Shown here piece after piece: positions 4,903-51,177 of a DNA stretch of 52,623 bases. The stretch's first letter is position 1; the number at the start of each line of letters is the position of its first letter. The translations under genes were made by a program, and so were the position numbers. The notes below the pieces were generated by a model. That model worked only from the letters and a program-made list of their open reading frames with translations, was not told the origin of the DNA and did not search any database. The stretch spans positions 1 through 52,623 of the IMG/VR virus record IMGVR_UViG_3300044730_000687. The stretch is one strand, 5' to 3'. The stretch comes from a virus.

Positions 4903-5129
4903 GCGTTCTTCCTTTGATCCATGTACTGCACGCACTCCTGCCACAACAACTCCGTCTCCTTCACTCCGTTTACTCTGGTTTGATTCACGGCGCAATCCGA
5001 TGTTCGAATCATGCACACCGCGAACCCTGCGTAGAAGGCGTCTTGCAATCCTTCCCATTGCACAGGTTCGCACCCGTCCGGGTAGCTTGCCTGCATCATG
5101 CGAATGAACTCGTCGCGGAGCGTGGTCAT
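4899..5129 (-). CDS. 76-residue protein in the PP-loop operon
   Basis: The start MTTLRDEFIRMMQASYPDG overlaps the stop of the DUF3440 gene (ATGA at 5126-5129). The body contains DAFYAGF and VQYMDQRKNA and looks like a small helical phage protein of the type with a DAFYAG(F/A) motif. The function is unknown. Coupling on both sides ties its dosage to that of its neighbours. Confidence 0.78.
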   Translation of the reverse strand: MTTLRDEFIRMMQASYPDGCEPVQWEGLQDAFYAGFAVCMIRTSDCAVNQTRVNGVKETELLWQECVQYMDQRKNA

Positions 5130-6331
5130 GCTTCCTGCCTTCTGGTTTTCTTGATGTCCATGTACTTCGCGTAAGCCTCGCTCTTTGGTTGGGTCAGTCC
5201 AAGCCCCTTGCACCAATGGTCGTTCCGGAGAATCACTTTGCACAGCCTTCTCCATGAAGGTGCCCAGTGCTTATCCTCAAGCACCTTCGGGGCTTCGTCC
5301 GGGATGCCGTTCACGTACCCTCTCCCTTTCCATCCCGTGATGAACGATTTGAACCTGCCTACGTAGTGCTCTCTCGTTTTGTTGGGCAGTGTGTTGAGCA
5401 GTAGGTTGCAGAAGCTCTTCCACGTATGCCCGTCCGGTTTGCTGATCTTGTTGTACCCTGTGATGTTCCCGGTTTCCTGCACGTACAACGATCCGCTGTT
5501 GGCTCCGCTCACCCTGGTTACCAGCTTGAACCACGTCTTTGGCTCCAGAATGTGGTACAGCCAAAGCCCCCTCCTCTGGTCGTCACCGTACGGTTGGCAC
5601 AACCGCATCTGACTGATCGTAAGCCCTGCTTGGTGCATTCGGTCGTATATTTCGTTGTGCGGTTTTTCGGGATAGTGCGCGTGATACCTCCAAATGTCCT
5701 CCGTTTTCCAGTCGTACACTGGATACACGTTGTAGAGACCTTCCTCCACTTTGGTTGTAAACAGCTTGCCTCCGTGGCATTCCTTCTTCCTGCTCGTCAC
5801 GGTCCGAAATCGGTTAAGGCTCTCGTCTGCCCTGATTCCGACGAACCCACAGCAATCCTTGCCTTGTCCATACCAGACGCCAAAGAGGACCATAAACTCC
5901 TCGAACTCCATTCTTTCCTCGAAGAAGTCGAAGTGCTTGGGGTCCGTTATGACGCCTTTGCGCTTCGGCACTTCTCGCACCCACTCCACACCCGGCTCCC
6001 AGCAGCACCACCTCGGGTTGAATGCGCTCACGGCATTCCTGAGCAGCATCGGTAGGCATACCCAATGAAGTTCGATGTTCTTTTCGTACATGTCGAACAT
6101 CTCGTTGGCGTGCTCTATCGTTTGACTGTACTGCGCCTCCAGGTCTATCAGCAGCACTCCTACGGTTCGGCCGCGCTTGATCGCCTCATCCATCACAAGA
6201 TGGAACATGACGCTTGAGTCTTTGCCTCCCGAGAAGCTGATGTAGATTCGTTCGAAGTTGTCGAACGCATACGCCACCCGTTCGCGTGCTGCCGTAAGCA
6301 CGTCTTTTTCTGAGTATCGCTTGATGCTCAT
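5126..6331 (-). CDS. DUF3440 PP-loop enzyme, PAPS reductase-like (IbrA-like)
   Basis: A 401-residue protein. SFSGGKDSS (PP-loop SGGKDS at 34-39) binds and pyrophosphorylates with ATP. GIRADESLNRFRT, VYPVYDWKTEDIW and QMRLCQPYGDDQRRGLWLYH are signatures of the DUF3440 branch that includes E. coli IbrA. Members are called phosphoadenosine phosphosulfate reductases, but true PAPS reduction is doubtful, because PP-loop enzymes also thiolate tRNA (TtcA, ThiI) or DNA (DndC). It overlaps the 142-residue gene by one base (TGATG), with the ParB-like gene before that, the same gene pairing as ibrA/ibrB. Its length is typical of the family and the motifs look intact. Confidence 0.88.
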   Translation of the reverse strand: MSIKRYSEKDVLTAARERVAYAFDNFERIYISFSGGKDSSVMFHLVMDEAIKRGRTVGVLLIDLEAQYSQTIEHANEMFDMYEKNIELHWVCLPMLLRNAVSAFNPRWCCWEPGVEWVREVPKRKGVITDPKHFDFFEERMEFEEFMVLFGVWYGQGKDCCGFVGIRADESLNRFRTVTSRKKECHGGKLFTTKVEEGLYNVYPVYDWKTEDIWRYHAHYPEKPHNEIYDRMHQAGLTISQMRLCQPYGDDQRRGLWLYHILEPKTWFKLVTRVSGANSGSLYVQETGNITGYNKISKPDGHTWKSFCNLLLNTLPNKTREHYVGRFKSFITGWKGRGYVNGIPDEAPKVLEDKHWAPSWRRLCKVILRNDHWCKGLGLTQPKSEAYAKYMDIKKTRRQEA

Positions 6332-6759
6332 CAGTACAGGTTCGCTTCGGTTTTGGATTGCGCGGCATCCATGGTCAGCTCCGGTTCGCTTCGGCCTTTC
6401 AGCCACTTGTTGAGAGCCCACAGAGCGGTGTAGTCCGCAATGTTTTGCTCCTCTTTTGAGAGCAGATGGAACCCGCCCCTGTAACAGGAAGGCAGCCCTT
6501 TAGCGATGCACGCCGAAGCCTGCCCAAGCCATGCGATTCTGTTCATGTTCTCGTTGGACAGGTAGTGCTCGCATGAGTTCGGCCATTCCTTGAGCACGCG
6601 CATGAGAGCGTCTCTAAACTCCTCTCCGTTTTTCAGGAATGCAGCGTACTCGGCTTCGCACTTGTCCTTGTCTGCCGTTTTCCTTCCGTTCGGCTTGTCG
6701 TTGTAGAACCCGGCAGGGTAGCACTCCCACTTGTCGTACGTGTGGAATATTCGTTTCAT
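6331..6759 (-). CDS. 142-residue protein between ParB-like and DUF3440 genes
   Basis: A mainly helical protein with conserved-looking aromatic and Cys residues (YDKWECYPAGFY, CEHYLSNENMNRIAWLGQAS, GLPSCYRGGFHLL). The segment RIAWLGQASACIAKGLPSCY is, in my recollection, recurrent in phage proteins that accompany DUF3440 enzymes. It has one-base overlaps (TGATG) on both sides. It may be an accessory or substrate-recognition subunit of the cassette; no activity can be assigned. Confidence 0.82.
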   Translation of the reverse strand: MKRIFHTYDKWECYPAGFYNDKPNGRKTADKDKCEAEYAAFLKNGEEFRDALMRVLKEWPNSCEHYLSNENMNRIAWLGQASACIAKGLPSCYRGGFHLLSKEEQNIADYTALWALNKWLKGRSEPELTMDAAQSKTEANLY

Positions 6760-8406: not shown

Positions 8407-8846
8407 GTCTTTTTCCTCCAGGCGAACGACACAAGGTTTCGCATGATCCAAAGGTGCCGCAGGTTCGCCACGTTCACCACGTCTCGCGCCCTCGGGTACA
8501 CCTCGACCGCGTCGCACCCAGCGAATCCGCACCCGTCCTTGATGCCCTGCAACTCCTCCCAGCCGATGTCCGCTCGCCATTGGCCGTTGTCGTCGATCTC
8601 GGTCCGGCACACCGACAACCGCATTTCGACACCTTCCTCGCGAAACCCTTGCACGAGAAACTGACTCGATCTCCACACCTTGGCCGGTTTGCTCTCGCAC
8701 TCGGGCCAGAGTTCTTTCGGCACTTCCGTCATGCCGATGCCGTACAGCGCATTGGTTTCGCGCAGATGTTTCCGCGCCAGCGAGAGCCTTCGTTTCCACT
8801 CGCGCTTTCCGAGTTCGTTCCTGTCGCCGAGTAGTTGCGTCTTCAT
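8403..8846 (-). CDS. DUF7694-like phage protein
   Basis: A 147-residue protein. The core WEELQGIKDGCGFAG, AVEVYPRARDVVNVANLRH and LW matches a phage family of unknown function that I know as DUF7694. The start at 8846 overlaps the stop of the 3D-domain gene by four bases (ATGA). Nothing suggests truncation. Confidence 0.82.
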   Translation of the reverse strand: MKTQLLGDRNELGKREWKRRLSLARKHLRETNALYGIGMTEVPKELWPECESKPAKVWRSSQFLVQGFREEGVEMRLSVCRTEIDDNGQWRADIGWEELQGIKDGCGFAGCDAVEVYPRARDVVNVANLRHLWIMRNLVSFAWRKKT

Positions 8847-9139
8847 GGTTTCTTCAGGATTCGCACCGTCACGTTCCGTCTCCCAAACCGTTTCGCTTCC
8901 TCGTGGCTCACCATCAGCACGTCCCACACCCCGTCATGCCGTCGCGCCGTCCTGTCCTCCACCCTCCTGCGGAATCGTCCGTACCCCGGCACGTCCAGCA
9001 ACACCACCGTTCCGAACGGGACGCTGCGCGGAGCCGCAATCGTTAGCCCAACCCGTGGCACCGTCCCGCTCGCCGTCAATCCGCCCTCTCGTCCGCAGCA
9101 AATGGCGCACACACAGTACGCCGTTGCCCAGCCCTTCAC
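8843..9139 (-). CDS. 3D-domain protein (double-psi barrel, MltA-like catalytic core)
   Basis: A 98-residue protein starting at a GTG that overlaps the upstream stop (GTGA at 9136-9139). TAYCVCAICC, TASGTVPRVGLTIAAP, VPFGTVV, GRFRRRVEDRT, GVWDV and EEAKRFGRR follow the 3D domain in order. That domain is named for three aspartates and is the catalytic core of lytic transglycosylases such as MltA and of Rpf-like proteins. It has no signal peptide, so access to peptidoglycan would need the holin. It is a candidate lysis enzyme, but it sits among early genes rather than in a lysis cassette. The extra CxC..CC cluster at the N-terminus is unusual. Confidence 0.78.
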   Translation of the reverse strand: MKGWATAYCVCAICCGREGGLTASGTVPRVGLTIAAPRSVPFGTVVLLDVPGYGRFRRRVEDRTARRHDGVWDVLMVSHEEAKRFGRRNVTVRILKKP

Positions 9140-9489
9140 GCCTTGCGCTCCAGTTGTTCGGCCCGCTCCATCCTGGCCATTCGGTCGAACCGTTCTTCCG
9201 CGTCCCGGCTCGATTCGTCCCACTCGTTAATGTAGACGCGGAGCCATCCGTTAACCACCTTCCCGACCCGTTCCGCGTGGTCCAACATGATGCAGTAGAC
9301 TCGCGGGTTGATCGTGCTGTAGGCGAACAGGAACTTGCCACCGTGCCGCTTCACTTCGGCCAACGCCGGAACGAACACCGGAATGCACCCGTCCGCCTGC
9401 TCGGGTTCGTTCTCGTAAAAATCGAAGTAGAACGCCTTGCCTTGTAGCTCGCCGTAGAACTCGCCTGCGATTTCGATTTTCTTTCTCAT
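9136..9489 (-). CDS. Hypothetical protein, 117 residues
   Basis: Alternating strands and helices (GEFYGELQGKAFYFDFYENE, KFLFAYSTINPRVYCIMLD, LRVYINEW) end in a charged helix. The reading frame is open over its full length and is coupled to the 3D-domain gene by GTGA. I do not recognise the family. Confidence 0.7.
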   Translation of the reverse strand: MRKKIEIAGEFYGELQGKAFYFDFYENEPEQADGCIPVFVPALAEVKRHGGKFLFAYSTINPRVYCIMLDHAERVGKVVNGWLRVYINEWDESSRDAEERFDRMARMERAEQLERKA

Positions 9490-14866: not shown

Positions 14867-15161
14867 GTTTCGTTTCCTCTCGCTTCATTGCCACGTAACG
14901 GGTCCACCATTCCAACGCGCTGTATTCCCTCACGACCTTGACGTGCCAACAGGCCAGTCGTCTGTCTGGCTTTGCTCCGCGCTCAAGCAATCCCGCGTAG
15001 TGAATCCCGAAGTCTTCGCACCCGCACTTTCCGTTTCCTCCGTACCACGTCATGTCCACCCGATGACGAATGCTTGGCCGGCTCCTGCTTTGCACCCAAT
15101 ACACGCCAAACTCGCCTTCGACAGGTTCGACGACCGGGAGCAATGTCGGTTTCCTTTTCAC
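14580..15161 (-). CDS. SWIM zinc-finger protein with long out-of-frame tail over the HNH gene
   Basis: A 193-residue protein. The SWIM motif CxC...CxH (C46, C48, C71, H73) lies in residues 46-73; such fingers bind DNA or proteins. The start at 15161 is a GTG overlapping the stop of the PP-loop gene (GTGA); ATG 15182 is an alternative. From about residue 100 the frame runs 287 bases across the HNH gene in another frame, and that part looks like non-selected sequence. Either the true gene lost its stop, or the two are read as overlapping genes. Confidence 0.7.
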   Translation of the reverse strand: MKRKPTLLPVVEPVEGEFGVYWVQSRSRPSIRHRVDMTWYGGNGKCGCEDFGIHYAGLLERGAKPDRRLACWHVKVVREYSALEWWTRYVAMKREETKRDRETKRAETQSPVDHCIPGTNGTGTAGPGGRIFQACQEVQADPSGVSTMQPTTDSGCPSYPRPKRDAVARLASLESGVPRVSRMDWKQPGKIAP

Positions 15162-16033
15162 TCGCAATATCCGCTCATGCACTTTGCCCCGTCGTCGTCT
15201 TCCTGAAACATGAAGTCAAATCCGGATTGAACGCCTCCGCGTAACGTCTTTGACCATCGTACCACGTCGTCGATTGTTCCGATTGTATATTCGACTCCTT
15301 TGCGATTCGTGTATCGTTTAGAATGCTGGGCATTTGGAATTGCTGTAGCCGGAAAAAAAGTAGCGATTCCCGCGTGTGGTCTGGCTAATCCTACTAGTCT
15401 CTCCCATTCTCTGTACTCGTCTATTACTTCCGGTCGCTTTTTTGCGGTCCTTCGCACGTCTTCTTTTCCGCTCATGCAGCACAGTCTGCACCCGACGCGC
15501 TTCCATCCCTGCTTATACAAAGGATTGATTGGTATTCCCCATTCTTTATGCGCGTCCCAAACGTCTCCGATTGACCAATCAAGCAACGGGCGCCTCACCT
15601 TAGACTTCATTGGTTCGCTGTAATCCCATTCGTCCAACATTGATCGTTGCACGGATTCATCGCGGCGAACGCCGCTGTGAGAAATCACTTCGTAGCCATC
15701 GAGCCACAGCTCTTGAATATAAGCGATGCTTGGACGGATCTTAAGCCAGTCGGTACAGAATCGAGCCATGGAAGAAGGAAAGCGTTGCTTCCAAATGGCC
15801 AACCGAAGAAAACCCATCGACTTCATCCACCGTACCGGAGCGACGCCCCTAGCCTGACCGTACGCATCCAAGGCACGAATCTGTTCGTATACCTCCGGAT
15901 ATTCGTTCTCCGTGTCAGCAAATGAACCTCGGATTGATTCAATCGAATAGCCCGACTCGTTGATTGCCCACCCCCACAAAGCCGTCGAGTCTTTGCCTCC
16001 GCTCAACCCAAAATGGTTTATGGTTTTTGACAT
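15158..16033 (-). CDS. PP-loop ATPase, phage PAPS reductase-like
   Basis: A 291-residue protein. PP-loop SGGKDST at 11-17; FCTDWLKIRP; HSGVRRDES; RRPLLDWSIGDVWDAHKEWG; INPLYKQGWKRVGCRLCC. The Cys-rich segment after RVGC and the C-terminal KCMSGYCE may hold a metal or Fe-S cluster. The family is called PAPS reductase/sulfotransferase in phages and includes DndC-like DNA thiolation relatives. This is the second PP-loop enzyme in the genome (the other is at 5126-6331) and belongs to a different branch. Its substrate is unknown. Confidence 0.88.
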   Translation of the reverse strand: MSKTINHFGLSGGKDSTALWGWAINESGYSIESIRGSFADTENEYPEVYEQIRALDAYGQARGVAPVRWMKSMGFLRLAIWKQRFPSSMARFCTDWLKIRPSIAYIQELWLDGYEVISHSGVRRDESVQRSMLDEWDYSEPMKSKVRRPLLDWSIGDVWDAHKEWGIPINPLYKQGWKRVGCRLCCMSGKEDVRRTAKKRPEVIDEYREWERLVGLARPHAGIATFFPATAIPNAQHSKRYTNRKGVEYTIGTIDDVVRWSKTLRGGVQSGFDFMFQEDDDGAKCMSGYCE

Positions 16034-32413: not shown

Positions 32414-32881
32414 TTAGACCGTCGTTCCCGTAATCTTCAACTTTGCCACAAGTTGCACGTCATAGACGAGCCATGGCGTTTGCGATTCCAACGTAATGGC
32501 CGTCGAAGCTCCTTCGAACACGGCCCACGGACTCTCGGTCATGTGCGCATGGTCCAGTGTCGCCAGCACTTCCTCGGCGACGCGCAAAGCCGTCCAATGC
32601 GACACACGACTTGTCCCCCTGTGAATCTTGACCGACTCAAACACCTTGATCGCGCAGGCCACTTCGCGCAAGACGTGGTTCACGCGCACCATCGTTGGCG
32701 TCGAGATGAAAGCGGCAATCCCATCTCGCGACAAACGCTTGTCTATCTCGCTTTCAAAGTCGCCTTCGTCCTCCGTGATAAATGCGACTTTCTCCGCCAT
32801 CCAACGAGCATCGTTTTGCAAAGTGCTTTGCATCCACGTCTGCACTGACCTCATGACGCCTGTCTCGGGTTCACGTACCAC
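32414..32881 (-). CDS. Tail terminator/completion-like protein
   Basis: A 155-residue protein. The start is a GTG at 32881 with GGAGG six bases upstream, inside the end of the holin-like gene (11-base overlap). A helical N-terminus (SVQTWMQSTLQNDARWMAEK) and a beta-alpha body suggest a tail-completion protein between head and tail modules. The assignment is by position and size only. Confidence 0.5.
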   Translation of the reverse strand: MVREPETGVMRSVQTWMQSTLQNDARWMAEKVAFITEDEGDFESEIDKRLSRDGIAAFISTPTMVRVNHVLREVACAIKVFESVKIHRGTSRVSHWTALRVAEEVLATLDHAHMTESPWAVFEGASTAITLESQTPWLVYDVQLVAKLKITGTTV

Positions 32882-33149
32882 GGTTTGCCTCCTTCACGTC
32901 CTTGGCGTCTTGAAGGTCGCCGTTCAACAGGCTCCGGAACGATCCGCATGCCGCACCAATTAGCGCCGCGATCAAAATTGCCAAATCGTAGGCGTATTGC
33001 ACGGGATGCTGAACCATGGCGTTGAACCGTTCCGCTCCCACTTGGGACAACCATGCCGTTACGACGGCTGACAAAGCAATCCCCTCATACGTGATCAGCG
33101 TCAGAACCGCCCACTGCCATCGATTGACGAAGTTTCCTAAGGCTTTCAT
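32871..33149 (-). CDS. Holin-like two-helix membrane protein
   Basis: A 92-residue protein. Two transmembrane helices (about 13-35 WAVLTLITYEGIALSAVVTA; about 53-72 YDLAILIAALIGAACGS) are separated by a short loop, with a charged C-terminus (GDLQDAKDVKEANRGT). This is the class II holin layout. It is coupled by ATGA to the membrane PAS protein upstream and lies before tail genes rather than beside an endolysin. Confidence 0.65.
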   Translation of the reverse strand: MKALGNFVNRWQWAVLTLITYEGIALSAVVTAWLSQVGAERFNAMVQHPVQYAYDLAILIAALIGAACGSFRSLLNGDLQDAKDVKEANRGT

Positions 33150-33763
33150 GTCGCGTATGGGGTCCCGTCGTTGTCTTCCTGCGCTTCTCCAAGCTTGTGC
33201 GGAGCCACCTTTTCGACGACCCCAAACATCCGCAGGATCTTCCCGTCTCTGTTTTTGCTGACGTAGGTGTGGGCCTTCGCGATGAATCGCTCGCCGGTCT
33301 TTCTGTTGTGAACTCTGTAGGTTTCAAGCCACGGCATGCTTCCATTCAATGCGGCTCGCCAGTTGTTTGCTACCCGACTTCGCTCCTTGGCCCCTTCCAT
33401 TCCCTCAAGCCATCCGTTTCCGAGCATGCTGTGCGCGTCGAGACCGAACATGTCCGCAAGTGTTCTCGAAACGTACACGCAGTTCCCAATCTGGTCGCAT
33501 TCAAACGTTGCATCTCCTCCGCAGAAGTCAGCCCTGACTCGCTGGCCATCGCGCAACACCACGAGATCATCCTCAATAGCTGTAACCCGATCGGGAAGCG
33601 TCATGCCGCCGCTGCCAATGATCGCACTGTGAATCGCCGTCAGTTTCCGAATGCTGCTCCAAACCCATACAGCGGCACCTCCGACAACAGGATAGACAGA
33701 CACCACAACGAACTGCTTTACAAGCTCGGAACCGAATGCGTGCTGTAGAAATTCGGCGATCAT
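33146..33763 (-). CDS. Membrane-anchored PAS-domain protein
   Basis: A 205-residue protein. One transmembrane segment (about 17-37 QFVVVSVYPVVGGAAVWVW) is followed by a short coiled linker (LPDRVTAIEDDLVVL) and a PAS domain (about 84-187: ATFECDQIGNCVYVSRTLAD, MLGNGWLEGM, ERFIAKAHTYVSKNRDGKIL, FGVVEK). PAS domains sense small ligands, redox state or light and normally drive kinases or cyclases; no output domain is attached. The ATGA overlap with the holin-like gene implies linked dosage. It may sense a host or membrane state and gate lysis; that is speculation. Confidence 0.85.
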   Translation of the reverse strand: MIAEFLQHAFGSELVKQFVVVSVYPVVGGAAVWVWSSIRKLTAIHSAIIGSGGMTLPDRVTAIEDDLVVLRDGQRVRADFCGGDATFECDQIGNCVYVSRTLADMFGLDAHSMLGNGWLEGMEGAKERSRVANNWRAALNGSMPWLETYRVHNRKTGERFIAKAHTYVSKNRDGKILRMFGVVEKVAPHKLGEAQEDNDGTPYAT

Positions 33764-33782: not shown

Positions 33783-34115
33783 TTACTCGCGAGTCAGGTT
33801 GCGAACTACAACGGTGAGAACGTTCTCCAACCGTGCAATTCGTTCGTCGCGCGTTCCTGTTCCAAAATCCCGAACGACCCTCCGTTGCTTTTCCAGTCGG
33901 GTATTGTCGTCGCGATTATCCTCCTCCTTTTTGAGTTGGGCCAATTCTTCAGGCAGCAACTCCCTTCCGCCAATCCAAAGCCACGTTGTGCCGTTGTATG
34001 AACAATTGGAAACAACCCACGTCGGACAATCAATATAGCCGTCCGGTGGAACATCTCCGCTGTAAATCTGTGTGGAGATGACTAGCGAGTCCTTGAGCAG
34101 CGCGGAGTTTTTCAT
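33783..34115 (-). CDS. Hypothetical protein with coiled-coil end, 110 residues
   Basis: The N-terminal half is beta-rich with cysteines (GYIDCPTWVVSNCSYNGTTW); the C-terminal half is a charged coiled coil (EELAQLKKEEDNRDDNTRLE). It is coupled by ATGA to the large glycosidase gene. It may be a fibre-associated or chaperone protein; the function is unknown. Confidence 0.7.
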   Translation of the reverse strand: MKNSALLKDSLVISTQIYSGDVPPDGYIDCPTWVVSNCSYNGTTWLWIGGRELLPEELAQLKKEEDNRDDNTRLEKQRRVVRDFGTGTRDERIARLENVLTVVVRNLTRE

Positions 34116-37100
34116 GGTGCGTTAAGTGTCCCGATGGTCGCCGTCCCGATGGTCGCGTTCGGCGGAGTCGACGCAACTCCGTTCGTGACTGCGAATGTGA
34201 TTCCAGAAAGCTCTCCGGTGTTCCCATACTTGTCTCGCGCCTGCACATCTAGCCGATAGACTCCGTTGACCAGATTCGTGAACTCCGCGACTGTACCCTC
34301 GGCCCAGTTTTCCCATGGAGCAGATGGGCCGAGCCGGAATCGGCTCAACACGTTGCTCCTGTAGAGCGGAGTGTTCATCACCGTGTCGTCTAACGCGGTC
34401 CATTTGATGAACGTGTCAGTCAGCCCTTCTCCGTTCAGTGCGGACAGCGGGTACGAGTCCATAGTGATGACTGGCGGATTTGTGTCAGCCCGCGACGCGA
34501 CAACCGCATTGGTCAGCAGAGCAAACATAGCGGCAGGACTGATGGTGCGGCTGACGAGGTACGTGGCCACGCGCCCAATCGGGATGGCTGCGCTGTTGCT
34601 TGTCAGCAGATTCCCGAATACGTCAAGCTGGCCGAAGTTCGTGCTGCCCAGCGTCAAGCTTCGGTTCGTTTTGTCTTGGGTCCAGATGATTGCGGTAGTG
34701 AGATTGCTTTTGCCGAAAACGTAGCAGTCGGTTTTCGGTATGTTGGTCACCGAGGCAGTGTACGAAGGCGGGTCTATCAGCCTCTTGAATTGGAGCATCG
34801 CAGCAAGCTGTGGCCGCGCTTCATCGTAGAAATCCCACACAGGGGAGCTGGTGTCGATTGCTCCGCCGCGAATGTAGGAGCTGTATCGGGCGTCGTAGTA
34901 GTACACCCCCGCAAACCCATGACCCAAGCTGCGAGCCAGCACCGCCAAGGCACGCATCGTCGTGTTGTAACCAGCCCTGTCCATAACCTCGTGCCGAAGC
35001 ATTTCGTACGTCCACGCAGCTCCGGTCTGAATTCCGACATTGTATGTCCGGCAAGGACCGTTGTCGTAGACGCCGGATTCCGAGTTGTACACAGGTTTCC
35101 CGTAGTTGATCCCAAGTTGCTGCCACTGCTGATACCTGGGTCGATCCGTAACGTCGTCATTCATCAACATGACGACGTTGCCGCCTGCCGGGTAGAGATG
35201 GCACGACAGCCCGTGGACGTTGGAGAGTGTGTTCGACGGAAGGATGCCGAGAAACCCGTGAGCGACGTTCGTGTCAGCCATGCCGCCGCATGTCACGTAC
35301 AGCGCCCCGGGATAGGCTGCGTGTAGCGCATTCTCTTCTGTTATGGCGATGTCGCGCAGATTCGCTGCGGTCAGGGTCGAGTGTGGCTCATTCCGCATCT
35401 CATAAAATGCGATTCGGTCAGTGTACCGGCCGGCCACTCGATTAATGTAATCCCAAAGAAGGTTTGTGTGGACCATCGCGCCGCTGGAGACGGCGAATGC
35501 AGGTATCTCAGCATTCGTCCACAAAGTCATCCAGATGTCCTGTTCGTCGTGAGCGCCAACTCGCCAGTCGGTTGACTCGAACGTGAAATTGTTGTCTGTC
35601 GCCTCGATGCTCGTCCATCGCGCATACCCGCCAGGGGACAGAGTTCGGGTCCCGCGAAATCCAAGGACCTTGTTTGTCGCCACCGCGTCTTCGGCAGTCT
35701 GGCTGTGAATGTGGACAATCCCGTTGGTTGCGTCGCTCGACCAGACCTTCGCGAACATAGTCTCGTCCTGTTCTGGATGAGACGTTGACCTGCTCACGAC
35801 TCGGTAGTGGCCGAATTGAATCCACGGAGGAAAAGTGATTGTGTTGGTGGCCTTTCCGGGTGGCACTGACCCATTGAACTCGCCGCTGAAAATGGGCACT
35901 CCGAACTGATGGTTCGTCTGCCCGTAGGCGATGTAAGACCAGTTGAAATTTGAGGAACTCGAACCGTAGTTGTACGTGACGAGATCCATCGACACGGTCT
36001 CGTTGTCGAACCACAGATTGCCATTTCTCGGTGTGGTGAGAACAAACTCTACCCCGTGCTTTGGAGCCCACGGTGTGGCGGTTGCCCCCTCCTCAAGTTG
36101 GACGTCGTCGATGTAAAATGAGGTAAGCGTGACCGATTCGATCGTGAGCTGCCACTCAGCCGTGGGGCGGTCGCTTGCCCAAAAATTCGTCTGGAACCGC
36201 ACCCAGTTCGTGGTCCCCGGTGCGGTCCAATTCCATGAGTACCCCACGTTCGTTGTGCTGGCCGGAACGTAGCGATTCGTCCAAGCCAATGACGTCATCC
36301 TCGCAGTCACCGTTGACGCCAAGGCTTTGGCGTAAAAGCTCAACGTGTACTGACGAGTTCCAGGTCGCAGCTTGATAGGGCTGTTGTAGATCGCGAACCG
36401 AGCTTTACTGTCATTGATCCATGCAATCGTTGATCCAGTCACCGCGTTGTTGGTCGTTGCTACATTCGACTTCAAGAACGTAGGCTTGAAGAGATTGCTG
36501 TCGGTCTGCGAGTTTCTCGCATACATCCAGCGTGGCTGCCAACCCAGCTCAAACGAAGCGTTGCCAAGTTTGTTTCCATGGATGGCGTTGGTCTGAACTG
36601 GAGGCACCGAGTAATCGTAGAATGCGTCCATGTAGGCCGCCGTGCCGATCGGGTCAGTCGTTGCCGGTGCGGCGACGTTGGTGTTTGACGATAGCGCGAA
36701 CGCCTCAAGATAGAAGTCGTGGGCTTGGCTGGGTGCAGCGAGCCACGTAAACCGTACCTGGGCGTTGGTGAACTCCGTGGTCGCGACGTAATTGGTTCCG
36801 ACGTAGCCGGTGGCCTGGCTGAAATCTATGTTCGCCCAAGCGTTTGTTCCCAAGCGAAACTCCGCCACCCCCAGTGTGTTCGGTGGCTGAAAGTTTCGTG
36901 TCCAGGCTTTTAGGAAGGCCCTGTACGTCCCCGGCCCGCCCGACGGCCCGTCGATCGTTGCGGTTACATTCGTGGTCGCAGATGTGGTCCGGAAATACCA
37001 CGAGCCATACGTGAGGTTGACGTCCGACTTGGACCAGTTTGTGTTCTGCTGAGATAGGTCAAAGTCATCCTTCGTCCAGATCCGCAAGCCTGGAATCTGG

Positions 37101-37147
37101 GCCAGACATGAGACCGATGCGAACAGGATTGCAAGAAATAGCTTCAT
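34112..37147 (-). CDS. Exported clan GH-A glycosidase-like fibre protein
   Basis: A 1011-residue protein. Signal peptide MKLFLAILFASVSCLAQ; an N-terminal beta domain; a CBM4/9-like jelly roll (about 195-355, ending FYIDDVQLEEGATATPW); a TIM-barrel region (about 475-800) with the acid/base motif FYEMRNEP (E587) and a candidate nucleophile PVYNSES (E690), the paired glutamates of clan GH-A (GH5/GH39-like). The C-terminus has an Ig-like segment (PPVITMDSYPLSALNGEG). It probably cleaves a host surface or biofilm polysaccharide. A Sec signal is odd for a virion part, so it may be a soluble depolymerase. It is ATGA-coupled to the beta-helix fibre gene upstream. Confidence 0.8.
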   Translation of the reverse strand: MKLFLAILFASVSCLAQIPGLRIWTKDDFDLSQQNTNWSKSDVNLTYGSWYFRTTSATTNVTATIDGPSGGPGTYRAFLKAWTRNFQPPNTLGVAEFRLGTNAWANIDFSQATGYVGTNYVATTEFTNAQVRFTWLAAPSQAHDFYLEAFALSSNTNVAAPATTDPIGTAAYMDAFYDYSVPPVQTNAIHGNKLGNASFELGWQPRWMYARNSQTDSNLFKPTFLKSNVATTNNAVTGSTIAWINDSKARFAIYNSPIKLRPGTRQYTLSFYAKALASTVTARMTSLAWTNRYVPASTTNVGYSWNWTAPGTTNWVRFQTNFWASDRPTAEWQLTIESVTLTSFYIDDVQLEEGATATPWAPKHGVEFVLTTPRNGNLWFDNETVSMDLVTYNYGSSSSNFNWSYIAYGQTNHQFGVPIFSGEFNGSVPPGKATNTITFPPWIQFGHYRVVSRSTSHPEQDETMFAKVWSSDATNGIVHIHSQTAEDAVATNKVLGFRGTRTLSPGGYARWTSIEATDNNFTFESTDWRVGAHDEQDIWMTLWTNAEIPAFAVSSGAMVHTNLLWDYINRVAGRYTDRIAFYEMRNEPHSTLTAANLRDIAITEENALHAAYPGALYVTCGGMADTNVAHGFLGILPSNTLSNVHGLSCHLYPAGGNVVMLMNDDVTDRPRYQQWQQLGINYGKPVYNSESGVYDNGPCRTYNVGIQTGAAWTYEMLRHEVMDRAGYNTTMRALAVLARSLGHGFAGVYYYDARYSSYIRGGAIDTSSPVWDFYDEARPQLAAMLQFKRLIDPPSYTASVTNIPKTDCYVFGKSNLTTAIIWTQDKTNRSLTLGSTNFGQLDVFGNLLTSNSAAIPIGRVATYLVSRTISPAAMFALLTNAVVASRADTNPPVITMDSYPLSALNGEGLTDTFIKWTALDDTVMNTPLYRSNVLSRFRLGPSAPWENWAEGTVAEFTNLVNGVYRLDVQARDKYGNTGELSGITFAVTNGVASTPPNATIGTATIGTLNAP

Positions 37148-40100
37148 TTGTACTGGACAGCAATCTCGTTGAGAGTCGTATCCAGCGATGTCGAACCCGA
37201 AATGACCGCATTCCGCACCGACGCGCCAGCCGCCAAGCCCCAGGGAATATTCGATGAGTTCGTTACAACCGCCACATCATTGTGGTAGCCGATCATATTT
37301 GTGCCGTTAACATGGACACCAAGCTTGTACCACGTGCTTGGTGTGTACGTGATTCCGGTGTCCACCCACGTAACGCCCACGCTGTTCGAGACGCAGCCAA
37401 ACGCCCACGTCACCGCACCGCTGGCGATGTTCGTTTGGTGAATCCAGCCTGCAAACGTCGCTGGACGATTTGTGTCGCCCGTAGCCAGAGAATTGAATCC
37501 AACCTGGAGTGAGTAAATATTGGTCAGTACATTGCCAGATGTTTTGTCCGGCGTACGAATATCAGCGCCGAAGAACAACTGGTTAGTGCTGTTCTGCGTT
37601 GGGATTGCAAACGCACGATTGTCATACCAGCCAAAACACGGCGCTTGATTCGTGTTCTGCGCCCGCATGATGCGAATGCCTTGCCGGCCCGCACCGTTAG
37701 TCGCGCTGGTGTATTGGAACGATCCGCCATTGTTGGCACCGCTCGATCCCATATCACCGGATGTGACCGCCGTATTCAGGTTGAACAAATCATCAACGAA
37801 TAACTGTGATCCACCGATGATGCCTGTCACGAACATCTGAGGCGCGACACTTTCGAGTCGTTCATACACAGCACGCTCAGTCGCGACGTTAGTGCTGCTT
37901 TCCCAGCTTGGCCCGTACGGGTTGTACGAAACGATAAAGTTCGTAACCACGAGGCTGCTCATGATCACGTCTGCAAACGTGGCAGTGCCCGTGAAGGTCG
38001 GCGATGCGATGGTCGAGTACGTTGCGGCGGCGTCGTTGGAGCGAAGGATTGAGGATGGGATTCGGAGAGCGTCAATCGTTCCGGTGAGCAACGTTGCATC
38101 AACCGCCGTTATGTTGGCCGCGCTTGTTCCGTTCGTTCGAACGAAGCTGATGGAGGCCGAGTTGACTAGGTTGGAAACTGCGTTCGTCGCGCTCCCGATT
38201 GTGATGTAACCGGAACCTCCGCCTCCGCTTCCGCTCGCCGTAATCATGATCTTCTTATTCGAAGCGTCGTAGGCGAGACTAATGTTGTTTGACGAAACGA
38301 TTGAGTTCGTGAGCGCAGCCCACTGAACATCAGCAAAGTCGCTGATCGTCGAAGCAGTCTGCGTTCCCGTGTGATTTGCCCTGGAAATCAATGCTTGATA
38401 GGCTGCCGTCGTTAGCTTGTTCGTCCCCAAGCTGCTTGCAACAACCGAGTAGGTATAGTTCGATCCGCTTGTATTCCCCTCGATTTCCGATCCGTCGAGA
38501 AGGTTTAGCGTCGTCTTTTGAACTCCTTCGACCCACAGGGCCGTTCCGTTCGTTGGGCCGCCTCCTCCGCCTCCCGTAATCCCCATCGCGTTGTAAAGGT
38601 TTGCCAGCGTCATGCCGATACCTTCGCGAACTCCGGTTGATGGGTCGGCGGCGAATCCGTAGACGTGCGTCAGTGTGCCGGTGGAAGCCAGCACAGACAG
38701 AGGGCGCTCGAAGTAAATCCCGTTGTTCGTCCCGAAGTGCGCGAGGTTGTTTGCTCCCTTCTGGATCGTCAGCATCGCGTCCGCGTTTGCCTTCAAGACG
38801 AAAGCCTGCGTTGATCCGATTGCCCCTCCGGTAATCAGTCCGTTGAAGTTTGAGAGGACGTTTCCGAGCTTCACGGCTCCAGTTAACTCAGAGAAGCCAG
38901 CCACGTTCAGCCCGTTCGTGATGCTCAGCGAACCGTAAAGCGTGCCGCCGTAGTCCGGCAGGTACGGGTACACGTATCGCGTCCAGGCTGAATTGCGGTA
39001 GGTGAACGTGTCCTCTGTGCCAGCGCGAATCACTGTGTTGATGCCAGTGAACGTGACGGTGTTGGTGCCGGTGTTTCGGATCGTCAGCGTCGTGCCTGGG
39101 TACGTAAACCCGCCAACGCTGAACGTCATGTTGCTGGATCCTGTGATCTCCACCCGACTCGGCAGCAGGTCGCCGGGAATTGAAAGGTTTGTCGTCGCGC
39201 CCGAGACCGTGAAGTTGGTGGTGATAACCGAAAGCGCCGGCTGACTCTGCGTCCAAAGCTTAATCGGGACATTCGCGGGAAGCTCGTAGTCGCTGGCAAT
39301 GTCGGTCGGCGCGGAGTGGATCTCCCAATCGCGGACCAAGGAATTGGTCAGGCTCAAAGCCTTACCACTGTCCGATGTGATGGCGTTGTCCCGCCACCGG
39401 AACCCATAGAGCGTGGTGCCATTCGTGTCACGCAAAGCCCATGTCCCGCCCGTAAAGTCCTGGTAGAAGTAATTGCGGGTGACCGACAGAGCGCTGTGCT
39501 GGCCCGGTCCAAGGGCGATCGGGTTCTGAGTGAATACCTCAAAGTAATTGTGGTCGATGCTGTTGTTGATTTGACCTGAACCAACAACGCCTTCCGGATA
39601 AATTCCGTAGCGCAGACTCTGAAAAACATTCGCTGTGAAGTCGTGGTTTGCCACGCCCCCTTTCCAACGAATACCGATCGCATTGGTAAATCCTGGCGAC
39701 TCAAACTTGTTCCGAAAGATTGAATTTGCTGTCGCTGAAACACCATTAAGATCCAGCCCGATGTCAGAGTTGTTTATGAATGTGTTGAAGGTGATCAGAT
39801 GTCCGTAGTTCTGATTGCCAGTCAGCAACACGCCAACGCCGTTCGCCCTGTAGAAGTCATTTCCAACGATCTTGAACTCCGTCGAATTGTTGATGGTCAG
39901 GATGTTTGTCGCGGTGTTGTTCGCGTCGAACCAAAGATTTTCGATGGTGACGTGCCGCATCGTGTGAAGCGTGAACATCGTCGATGCTGACGTGCCGCGA
40001 ATGATGGACCGAAGCCCCGGCTGGCCTCGCAACGCCAATCCACCAACGAGCCCGGTTCCCGTGAAGCTTACGCTCGAAACCAGAATCGTCCCAACCGGGA

Positions 40101-40503
40101 ACTCAAGCGTCGGGACGTTGTTGGAGTAACAGTAGTTGATCGCGGCTTGCACTCCTGCCGTTCCGTCTGTCGATCCGTCGCTCGCAACTCCAAACCATTC
40201 GGCGCGTTGAGGAATAGCAAGCCTGTCAGCCGAGACCCACTTACCTGAAACTGATCTGTTCGTTAGGTAGTGAACACCGTCGTGCGACTGTGTTGCGGAT
40301 GGATCGTTCCGAAATGTTCGCGGTTGGCTGAATGGGACGGTTGCGCTGTAATTCCTGACTTGAATCTCCTCGCCAACAACGGGGCGTCTGGAGGTCAAGT
40401 CGGCAATCGTCGCGACGCTGTTAACTGGATTCATCTGCTGGCCAAAAGCCGCGATTGAAACGCACGCGCACAGCAGGCTAAGGAGTAGTGTCTGGATTCT
40501 CAT
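37144..40503 (-). CDS. Exported beta-helix tail fibre / depolymerase-like protein
   Basis: A 1119-residue protein. Signal peptide MRIQTLLLSLLCACVSIAAF; a pectate-lyase-3-type right-handed beta-helix (about 95-420: FGVASDGSTDGTAGVQAAIN, then repeated short strands); a fibre stalk with the NHTGTQTASTISDF motif typical of tail fibres; and a LamG-like lectin end (TPSTWYKLGVHVNGTNMIGY). The stalk motif argues for a virion fibre, the signal peptide against simple cytoplasmic assembly. Polysaccharide binding or cleavage is likely. It is coupled to its neighbours by ATGA on both sides. Confidence 0.85.
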   Translation of the reverse strand: MRIQTLLLSLLCACVSIAAFGQQMNPVNSVATIADLTSRRPVVGEEIQVRNYSATVPFSQPRTFRNDPSATQSHDGVHYLTNRSVSGKWVSADRLAIPQRAEWFGVASDGSTDGTAGVQAAINYCYSNNVPTLEFPVGTILVSSVSFTGTGLVGGLALRGQPGLRSIIRGTSASTMFTLHTMRHVTIENLWFDANNTATNILTINNSTEFKIVGNDFYRANGVGVLLTGNQNYGHLITFNTFINNSDIGLDLNGVSATANSIFRNKFESPGFTNAIGIRWKGGVANHDFTANVFQSLRYGIYPEGVVGSGQINNSIDHNYFEVFTQNPIALGPGQHSALSVTRNYFYQDFTGGTWALRDTNGTTLYGFRWRDNAITSDSGKALSLTNSLVRDWEIHSAPTDIASDYELPANVPIKLWTQSQPALSVITTNFTVSGATTNLSIPGDLLPSRVEITGSSNMTFSVGGFTYPGTTLTIRNTGTNTVTFTGINTVIRAGTEDTFTYRNSAWTRYVYPYLPDYGGTLYGSLSITNGLNVAGFSELTGAVKLGNVLSNFNGLITGGAIGSTQAFVLKANADAMLTIQKGANNLAHFGTNNGIYFERPLSVLASTGTLTHVYGFAADPSTGVREGIGMTLANLYNAMGITGGGGGGPTNGTALWVEGVQKTTLNLLDGSEIEGNTSGSNYTYSVVASSLGTNKLTTAAYQALISRANHTGTQTASTISDFADVQWAALTNSIVSSNNISLAYDASNKKIMITASGSGGGGSGYITIGSATNAVSNLVNSASISFVRTNGTSAANITAVDATLLTGTIDALRIPSSILRSNDAAATYSTIASPTFTGTATFADVIMSSLVVTNFIVSYNPYGPSWESSTNVATERAVYERLESVAPQMFVTGIIGGSQLFVDDLFNLNTAVTSGDMGSSGANNGGSFQYTSATNGAGRQGIRIMRAQNTNQAPCFGWYDNRAFAIPTQNSTNQLFFGADIRTPDKTSGNVLTNIYSLQVGFNSLATGDTNRPATFAGWIHQTNIASGAVTWAFGCVSNSVGVTWVDTGITYTPSTWYKLGVHVNGTNMIGYHNDVAVVTNSSNIPWGLAAGASVRNAVISGSTSLDTTLNEIAVQYK

Positions 40504-50108: not shown

Positions 50109-50191
50109 GGCACGTAAACGATGAGTGCCACGCGGGCGTTGGTTGCCGCCAGGGCATTGACATCCAAAACATTGTTGCGCTTTGTGCTCAC
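50105..50191 (-). CDS. 28-residue peptide gene
   Basis: Supported by GTGA overlaps on both sides (50188-50191 and 50105-50108). The product runs MSTKRNNVLDVNALAATNAR and ends VALIVYVP; too short for homology. The start and stop geometry matches every neighbour, so it is probably translated, perhaps mainly to carry ribosomes between genes. Confidence 0.6.
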   Translation of the reverse strand: MSTKRNNVLDVNALAATNARVALIVYVP

Positions 50192-50439
50192 TTCGCGCCC
50201 TCCACGATCACCGGCACCCCGTGCTGGTCCACGCCCCGGGTCTTGGTCCATCCGCAGTACAGTGTGAGAAACGCCGATGCCGCATGCGCTGCGTCAACCT
50301 CTTGCTTGGATGGCTCCCTGAAAGCCGTGCTGGCGCGGTACATCTCGTACGTTGTCCGGTACGCCCCGCACCGCTGGTCTTTGGTTGTTCCGCAGCCGAC
50401 GAGCAGCAGGGCGAGGAGGAGTGAGAGTGAGCGGATCAC
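50188..50439 (-). CDS. Small lipoprotein (o-spanin candidate)
   Basis: An 83-residue protein starting at a GTG in a GTGA overlap. MIRSLSLLLALLLVGCGTTK has a lipobox (LVGC) for signal peptidase II, so the mature protein would be anchored in the outer membrane from Cys16. It has two further cysteines. With the coiled-coil membrane protein at 50708-50983 it could form a spanin pair, although one gene separates them. Confidence 0.75.
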   Translation of the reverse strand: MIRSLSLLLALLLVGCGTTKDQRCGAYRTTYEMYRASTAFREPSKQEVDAAHAASAFLTLYCGWTKTRGVDQHGVPVIVEGAK

Positions 50440-50711
50440 GGCTTCCTCCCTTCTGCCCGGGCGATGGCGGCCCGTGCTGCATACCAAGCGAGGTGATCAT
50501 GTTCGGTGGTTGCCATGATTTCCTTCAGTGCGGCCAAAAGCTCCGGAGCCGTTGCGATCAGATTGCAGTTGGCTTCAGATTCCTGATCTCCAGGGTGATG
50601 CACAACCGCCAAGCGCTTTCCCCTGCCAAACACAACTCGTGATTCTGCGTCGAGATCGTTGTAGTCTCCACGGTCGGCTAGCGACCAAGGCCCCGGCGTA
50701 TGTTTTCTCAC
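50436..50711 (-). CDS. Conserved phage protein (HTPGPWS...LIATAPELLAALK)
   Basis: A 91-residue protein. The start MRKHTPGPWSLADRGDY and NLIATAPELLAALKEIMAT belong to a very common small phage protein family of unknown function. It starts at a GTG in a GTGA overlap with the spanin-like gene. Confidence 0.85.
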   Translation of the reverse strand: MRKHTPGPWSLADRGDYNDLDAESRVVFGRGKRLAVVHHPGDQESEANCNLIATAPELLAALKEIMATTEHDHLAWYAARAAIARAEGRKP

Positions 50712-50983
50712 GGCTTCACCTCCCCGATGATGCGATCCAGTTCTTGGCGCAAAGTTTTCATTTCCGACTTCGTCCGTTTCTCTTCGTGCATCAAGTTGTT
50801 CATGACGCTCAGAGTTTCGAGATAGCTGTCTCTTAAGTGGCCGTTGGCTTGCCTGTAGGTTTCAATCAGCGAATCTTTGGCCCCCAAAACTGAGCGGTGG
50901 TTTTTGGTCTTTTCATGGTTGATGAAAGCAAGCGTAAGGACAGCAATCGCAAGAAACGCATTGAGCGCCAGTGATGTTTTCAT
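50708..50983 (-). CDS. Membrane-anchored coiled-coil protein (i-spanin candidate)
   Basis: A 91-residue protein. An N-terminal hydrophobic helix (MKTSLALNAFLAIAVLTLAF) is followed by about 65 residues of periplasmic coiled coil (LIETYRQANGHLRDSYLETL; KRTKSEMKTLRQELDRIIGE). That is the i-spanin (Rz) layout, which links inner and outer membrane at lysis. It is ATGA-coupled to the small zinc protein upstream. Confidence 0.65.
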   Translation of the reverse strand: MKTSLALNAFLAIAVLTLAFINHEKTKNHRSVLGAKDSLIETYRQANGHLRDSYLETLSVMNNLMHEEKRTKSEMKTLRQELDRIIGEVKP

Positions 50984-51177
50984 TTGTCCTTTGCCTCCCC
51001 AATGATGAGGGCCGATGCGGTGCCTTCCCATTTGCAGTCATCGCAACCGGAGCCTCCGCAGTTGGAACACGCGCCTTTCCGTGGGTTGGCTCTCGCGTGC
51101 GATTGATCTGCCTCCTTGTCCGTTGCCGGCACGCCATGAAGCTTTTCAGCGTTTGGTTCTTCGCTTTTTTCCTTCAT
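50980..51177 (-). CDS. 65-residue protein with C-x2-C zinc knuckles
   Basis: MKEKSEEPNAEKLHGVPATD leads to ACSNCGGSGCDDCKWEGTAS: CxxCGGSGCxxC, like the zinc modules of DnaJ. The start has AGGAAAACGA upstream and overlaps the stop of the 32-residue membrane gene (ATGA at 51174-51177). It may bind nucleic acid or a partner protein. Confidence 0.75.
   Translation of the reverse strand: MKEKSEEPNAEKLHGVPATDKEADQSHARANPRKGACSNCGGSGCDDCKWEGTASALIIGEAKDK

Follow-up and report, generated by a model that had tools for sequence, protein, structure and literature searches.

A widespread and apparently undescribed PAS-bearing variant of a lysis-associated phage single-TM protein family, and its diverged member in a 52.6-kb virus record

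What might a phage do with a PAS domain that is held at the membrane by one helix, is followed by no output domain, and is encoded by a gene whose stop codon overlaps the start of a small two-helix membrane protein? The question is raised by a locus in a 52.6-kb virus record, which in its whole length is the stretch of DNA analysed here ("the window"). The timing of holins is commonly seen as a built-in clock that is modulated by antiholins, and a sequence-only reading of the locus had framed the gene pair as a sensor coupled to a holin. The locus comprises the following features:

33146-33763, minus strand: PAS protein, 205 aa, ATG start; TM helix, coil, GG hinge motif and PAS domain
33650-33724, minus strand: transmembrane helix of the PAS protein, residues ~14-38; one hydrophobic helix
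33572-33616, minus strand: hinge motif GSGGMTLPDRVTAIE of the PAS protein, residues 50-64; diverged copy of the family motif PNGGSSLRDAVNRIE, at which the modelled helix breaks
33203-33514, minus strand: PAS domain, residues 84-187, from Pfam, the AlphaFold model and Foldseek
33146-33149, minus strand: ATGA stop/start overlap of the PAS gene and the two-TM gene (...GCG ACA TGA / ATG AAA GCC)
32871-33149, minus strand: two-TM protein, 92 aa, holin-like by size and layout only

The layout that had been read from the letters, a PAS domain behind one TM helix and without an output domain, was borne out by Pfam, hydrophobicity, AlphaFold and Foldseek, as was the ATGA overlap with the two-helix gene at 33146-33149. 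PAS_3 matches about residues 84-186 of the 205-aa protein with E=1.7e-8 (35 bits vs a cut-off of 25.6), and PAS_4 matches the same region with 27 bits (cut-off 23.1). The AlphaFold model, for which the input alignment held 39 sequences, consists of a helix at residues 2-50, a break at 51-55, a second helix at 56-80 and then the PAS fold, across which pLDDT is ~97; the top Foldseek matches of this model in the PDB are PAS/LOV domains (E 2e-7). In both the Pfam analysis and the model, the PAS domain is followed by a short tail and no output domain. The protein thus has the PAS_3 fold in common with bacterial membrane PAS sensors (histidine kinases; NifL, LOV-type folds), but unlike them it carries no kinase, cyclase, HAMP or any other output domain. 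The residues SSIRK stand directly C-terminal of the TM helix, and by the positive-inside rule the protein is predicted to lie N-out/C-in, with the PAS domain in the cytoplasm.

The 92-aa neighbour has hydrophobic stretches at about residues 12-35 and 48-77, and with its small size, two TM helices and charged C-terminus it shows the features of a class II holin. Its two TM stretches stand as described before. The best PHROG match is to a holin family, phrog_18836, but at E=0.13 it is not significant, and "holin-like" is a judgement of layout. The 92-aa protein gave no Pfam match, no relatives when used as a direct query against viral contigs and cultured phages, and nothing convincing in a phmmer comparison with known 2TM holins.

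Used as a direct query against the same viral contigs and cultured phages, the window PAS protein likewise found no relatives. A match in Vibrio phage VPMCC14 (E=8) was not credible, and PAS matches on bacterial plasmids were set aside as well, because those that carry annotation are either multidomain PAS proteins of the ordinary kind or a PAS gene that stands alone. A degenerate DNA pattern (GNGW...HPDD) led to one viral contig, L011, the PAS protein of which has a TM helix and the motif PNGNSSMRDAV. Scanning viral sequences for PNGGxx[ML]RDA returned at least 120 stretches, nearly all of them encoding short single-TM proteins, with a subset that carries a C-terminal PAS domain; ten PAS members were aligned, and the resulting pattern recovered further loci. 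The PAS-bearing loci number at least 63, with at least 45 unique and at least 35 clusters at 60% identity, in a motif search that favours the motif-bearing members of the family. They have the layout TM, coil, PNGGSSLRDAVNRIE hinge, PAS, stop. The C-side of the TM helix is more positive than the N-side in 31 of 35 relatives, which for the family, too, predicts a PAS domain in the cytoplasm and an N-terminus outside the cell membrane. When one genome per species from 84,980 bacteria and archaea was scanned for the motif, 11 loci were found, ten of them actinobacterial and without PAS and one with PAS, so that the family is essentially viral. This TM-PNGG-PAS family is large, widespread and almost exclusively viral, and apparently undescribed so far.

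Does the window protein belong to it? A family HMM was built from 35 relatives, with the window protein left out, and linker plus PAS of the window protein scored 80.5 bits on it, vs 64.8 for the PAS part alone, the linker thus contributing +15.7. Bacterial PAS domains also reach up to 72 bits on this HMM, such that PAS similarity alone does not decide membership, and for this reason the linker was put to the test: none of 2000 shuffles of window residues 38-76 reached 80.5 bits (best 73.7). In an alignment of GSGGMTLPDRVTAIE to PNGGSSLRDAVNRIE, GG, S/T, L, D, V, I and E are retained and P, N and R are lost; the window hinge keeps GG-x-[ST]-[LM]-x-D and some of the next helix. An HMM of the N-terminal part only was not significant on its own against the window protein, and the closest relative among the matches listed, L167/L230, has about 30% identity to it. 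Judged by its linker, the window protein is a diverged member of the TM-PNGG-PAS family.

The combination of motif and PAS domain also emerges from a motif-blind survey. A scan for G-W-xxx-x-H-P-D-D found 93 loci, and 31 unique ORFs from it score as PAS. About 17 of about 27 complete ORFs, counted by eye, have a TM helix, a motif of the type PN[GH]G-x-[ST]-[LMI]-[RK]-D and a terminal PAS domain, and kinase-like multidomain proteins are only a few. TM, PNGG-type motif and terminal PAS is the dominant layout of HPDD-type PAS ORFs on phage contigs, and not an artefact of the motif search.

Several motif variants were noted in passing. The PAS members L244, L258, L282 and L299 carry PNHGSSIKD or PNHGSSLKD, which resemble PNHGGSIKD of Arthrobacter phage Laroye gp72 and Glutamicibacter phage BIM BV-113. 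L311 and L319 are TM proteins with the hinge variant PNGT-x-PALFSRV ahead of the PAS domain, and may represent another branch of the family.

The short PNGGSSxRDA membrane proteins have the TM helix, the coil and the PNGG-type motif but no PAS, and fall into PHROG 9869, which is annotated as of unknown function; clustered at 50% identity, most of them chained together. They differ from the window protein in that the latter has a PAS domain and a motif without P, N and R. In cultured actinophages, PAS-less members are found in annotated lysis cassettes, beside endolysin and holin genes. Streptomyces phage mu1/6 gp52 is such a member, located after endolysin and holin, and others lie in cassettes as TurkishDelight gp37, Sonali gp22 and in Thermobifida phage P1312. 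In the Arthrobacter phages Laroye (gp72), Salgado, Wheelbite and LiSara, RefSeq labels short members "holin". Because the short forms are found in lysis cassettes and some of them carry a holin annotation, the PAS protein may itself be a lysis effector or a part of one. The picture of a sensor coupled to a holin is partly supported, but as a framing it gives way to that of a PAS-extended form of a common single-TM protein.

Endolysins were sought with five Pfam models over 34 viral PAS-bearing records, and were detected in 13 of them, while 21/34 gave none by any of the five models. In nine of the 13 records, endolysin and PAS gene are no more than 1.2 kb apart, vs 1.3 records expected (P=1.7e-7), with a threshold that was chosen after the data had been seen and contigs that are often fragments; in the other four (4/13), the distance is 6-31 kb. 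The nine are L011, L132, L134, L136, L141, L143, L145, L148 and L152, with the matches in L141 and L143 being below the Pfam cut-off. The endolysins near PAS genes are of several enzyme types, and we therefore do not regard the arrangement as one inherited cassette. In addition, TM helices are commoner in small ORFs near PAS genes (22/69 vs 18/122, p=0.009). Overlap with the gene of a small membrane protein is also seen for the PAS genes of L161 and L141.

Individual records illustrate the association. In L011, the PAS gene stands directly ahead of a phage lysozyme gene, and the cassette goes on to include an Rz-like gene. L134 has a complete-looking cassette in the order PAS, M15_3 endolysin, 2TM protein and Rz-like gene with a nested Rz1-like lipoprotein, and in L143 the order is lysozyme-like, Rz-like, Rz1 (PHROG spanin, E=2.8e-5) and PAS. 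Upstream in L132 are GTA_holin_3TM and a VanY endolysin. A complete lack of holin neighbours among PAS homologues, which would have spoken against the sequence-only reading, is not what was found, since holin, endolysin and spanin neighbours occur above chance. A different order, tail fibre, PAS, TerS (E=6e-15), TerL, is seen in the group of L147, L153 and L157. The T7 holin gene 17.5 occupies the tail fibre/terminase position that matches the PAS gene of the L147/L157 group; its likeness to the PAS genes of L147, L153 and L157 is one of position, and no sequence relation is claimed. In a second sample of ten motif-blind records, there was no PF00959 or PF01510 match above cut-off, and several PAS genes of the motif-blind sample have neighbours without any sign of lysis.

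The window carries head and tail genes, most of them on the minus strand, with recognisable genes for terminase, portal, protease, major capsid and tape measure; terminase patterns searched for in viral contigs gave no match. The PAS gene is flanked by tail-fibre-like genes on one side and tail genes on the other. The search for an endolysin in its neighbourhood gave none, and the sole candidate wall hydrolase found in the window (8843-9223) is 24 kb away. The lysis association is supported statistically at the level of the family, while the window gene itself has only its two-TM neighbour; the link is confined to this level because of the distant or undetected endolysins, the non-lysis contexts and the distance of the window hydrolase.

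Some other genes of the window deserve mention. The minus-strand gene at 8843-9223 is by eye a probable 3D/RlpA-like double-psi-barrel wall hydrolase (ATAYCVC...GLTASGTVPRVG...PFGTVV) and a possible endolysin, with a match to PHROG 2307, L-alanyl-D-glutamate peptidase (E=4.7e-6). Near the terminase end, 50711-51031 and 50188-50487 (minus strand) resemble a one-TM coiled Rz-like i-spanin and a small o-spanin-like lipoprotein (LLLVGC), and the former had no PHROG match. In tail-fibre position, 34112-37147 and 37144-40503 (minus strand) encode very large proteins of 1011 and 1119 aa, both starting with a Sec-type signal-peptide-like sequence, which is unusual for virion proteins; the 1011-aa protein has a sub-threshold GH10-like match. 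Two separate PAPS-reductase-like genes (5126-6421 and 15158-16033, minus strand) are present in this one phage genome.

A precedent for a pair of this shape is given by LysF1b and LysF1a, the lysis pair of mycobacteriophages Girr and NormanBulbieJr (PMC13056207). LysF1b has one TM helix in N-out/C-in orientation, its gene has an ATGA overlap with that of the 2TM protein LysF1a, and both its deletion and the triggering of lysis with cyanide support a holin function (PMC13056207). The window pair is alike in its N-terminal TM helix, the predicted N-out/C-in orientation, the small two-TM neighbour and the ATGA overlap, but differs in that LysF1b has a charged helical tail without PAS and that the gene order is reversed; around the window pair, no lysis cassette was seen. 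By eye only, Fruitloop gp32 (DUF2746) contains a faintly motif-like NMRDDLDEI. However, the DUF2746 HMM (PF10874), which detects LysF1b, matched neither the PNGG family nor the window protein, while the positive control, Fruitloop gp32, scored E=3e-13; membership of DUF2746 was therefore rejected, and the window protein is not filed as a LysF1b member.

Our favoured reading, to which we give about even chances, is that the window protein is a PAS-equipped member of the single-TM family and takes part in host lysis alongside a small two-TM protein, in this case the one encoded by the 92-aa gene. By analogy with LysF1b/LysF1a, we suggest a joint action of the 1TM PAS protein and its 2TM neighbour on the membrane, with the PAS domain biasing the timing. 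With the N-terminus outside and the PAS domain in the cytoplasm, the state of the PAS domain (ligand, redox, energy or simple dimerisation) could be passed through the GG hinge and the coil to the TM helix, and would set when the 1TM/2TM pair disrupts the membrane, a step that LysF1b/LysF1a would take without PAS. Both the ligand sensing and the holin action of the window pair are what we infer here, and ligand-controlled lysis is a good, testable hypothesis. The wider version, in which a widespread, almost exclusively viral class of lysis proteins carries its own cytoplasmic PAS sensor and many phages time lysis by a metabolite, the redox state or the energy state of the host rather than by a fixed holin clock plus antiholin, we put forward tentatively, as possible but with the odds against it.

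The PAS domain could also serve for folding or dimerisation only, in place of the charged coil that the short members of the same lysis family have, without any binding or sensing. TM helix, motif and lysis context are indeed common to short PAS-less and PAS members. Conservation is far lower in the PAS columns than in the motif (mean top frequency 0.39 vs 0.74, the motif value being inflated by the motif-based search), and the family alignment shows neither a conserved LOV-type Cys column nor a conserved haem-type His in the PAS domain; the LOV flavin cysteine motif of the GxNCRFLQ type is absent from the window PAS sequence. However, the PAS domain is intact and confidently folded in the AlphaFold model, and a single PAS without output domain recurs in at least 35 clusters, and we consider this explanation rather unlikely. 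A membrane-anchored decoy or modulator of host signalling, which during infection would pair with PAS sensors of the host or with other proteins of the membrane and owe its lysis neighbours to shared late expression, would fit the absent output domain and the several relatives in settings without lysis genes; but endolysin adjacency is far above chance and the PAS-less relatives in lysis cassettes could not act as PAS decoys, which makes it unlikely. A virion- or entry-related tethered protein (such as a tail-module accessory or superinfection block) is suggested by the position of the window gene between tail-fibre-like and tail genes, by the recurrence of tail-fibre-adjacent placement among relatives and by a weak match of two members to PHROG 404 ("minor tail protein"), but is improbable given that relatives have lysis-cassette neighbours and that lysis genes, too, commonly occupy places of this kind (T7 17.5).

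The PAS-bearing variant of this lysis-associated single-TM family is real and widespread and, apparently, undescribed so far, and the literature searched held no paper linking a PAS domain with phage lysis. For most HPDD-type PAS genes in phage contigs, an architecture and a motif are now at hand, together with a likely context. If the preferred reading of the PAS protein as a lysis protein with a two-TM partner is true, the recently described single-TM lysis proteins of the LysF1b type would gain a regulated counterpart, and a membrane helix of lysis cassettes joined to a classic sensor would form a direct path from host physiology to lysis time. The PAS protein may let the phage time lysis according to the state that its host is in.
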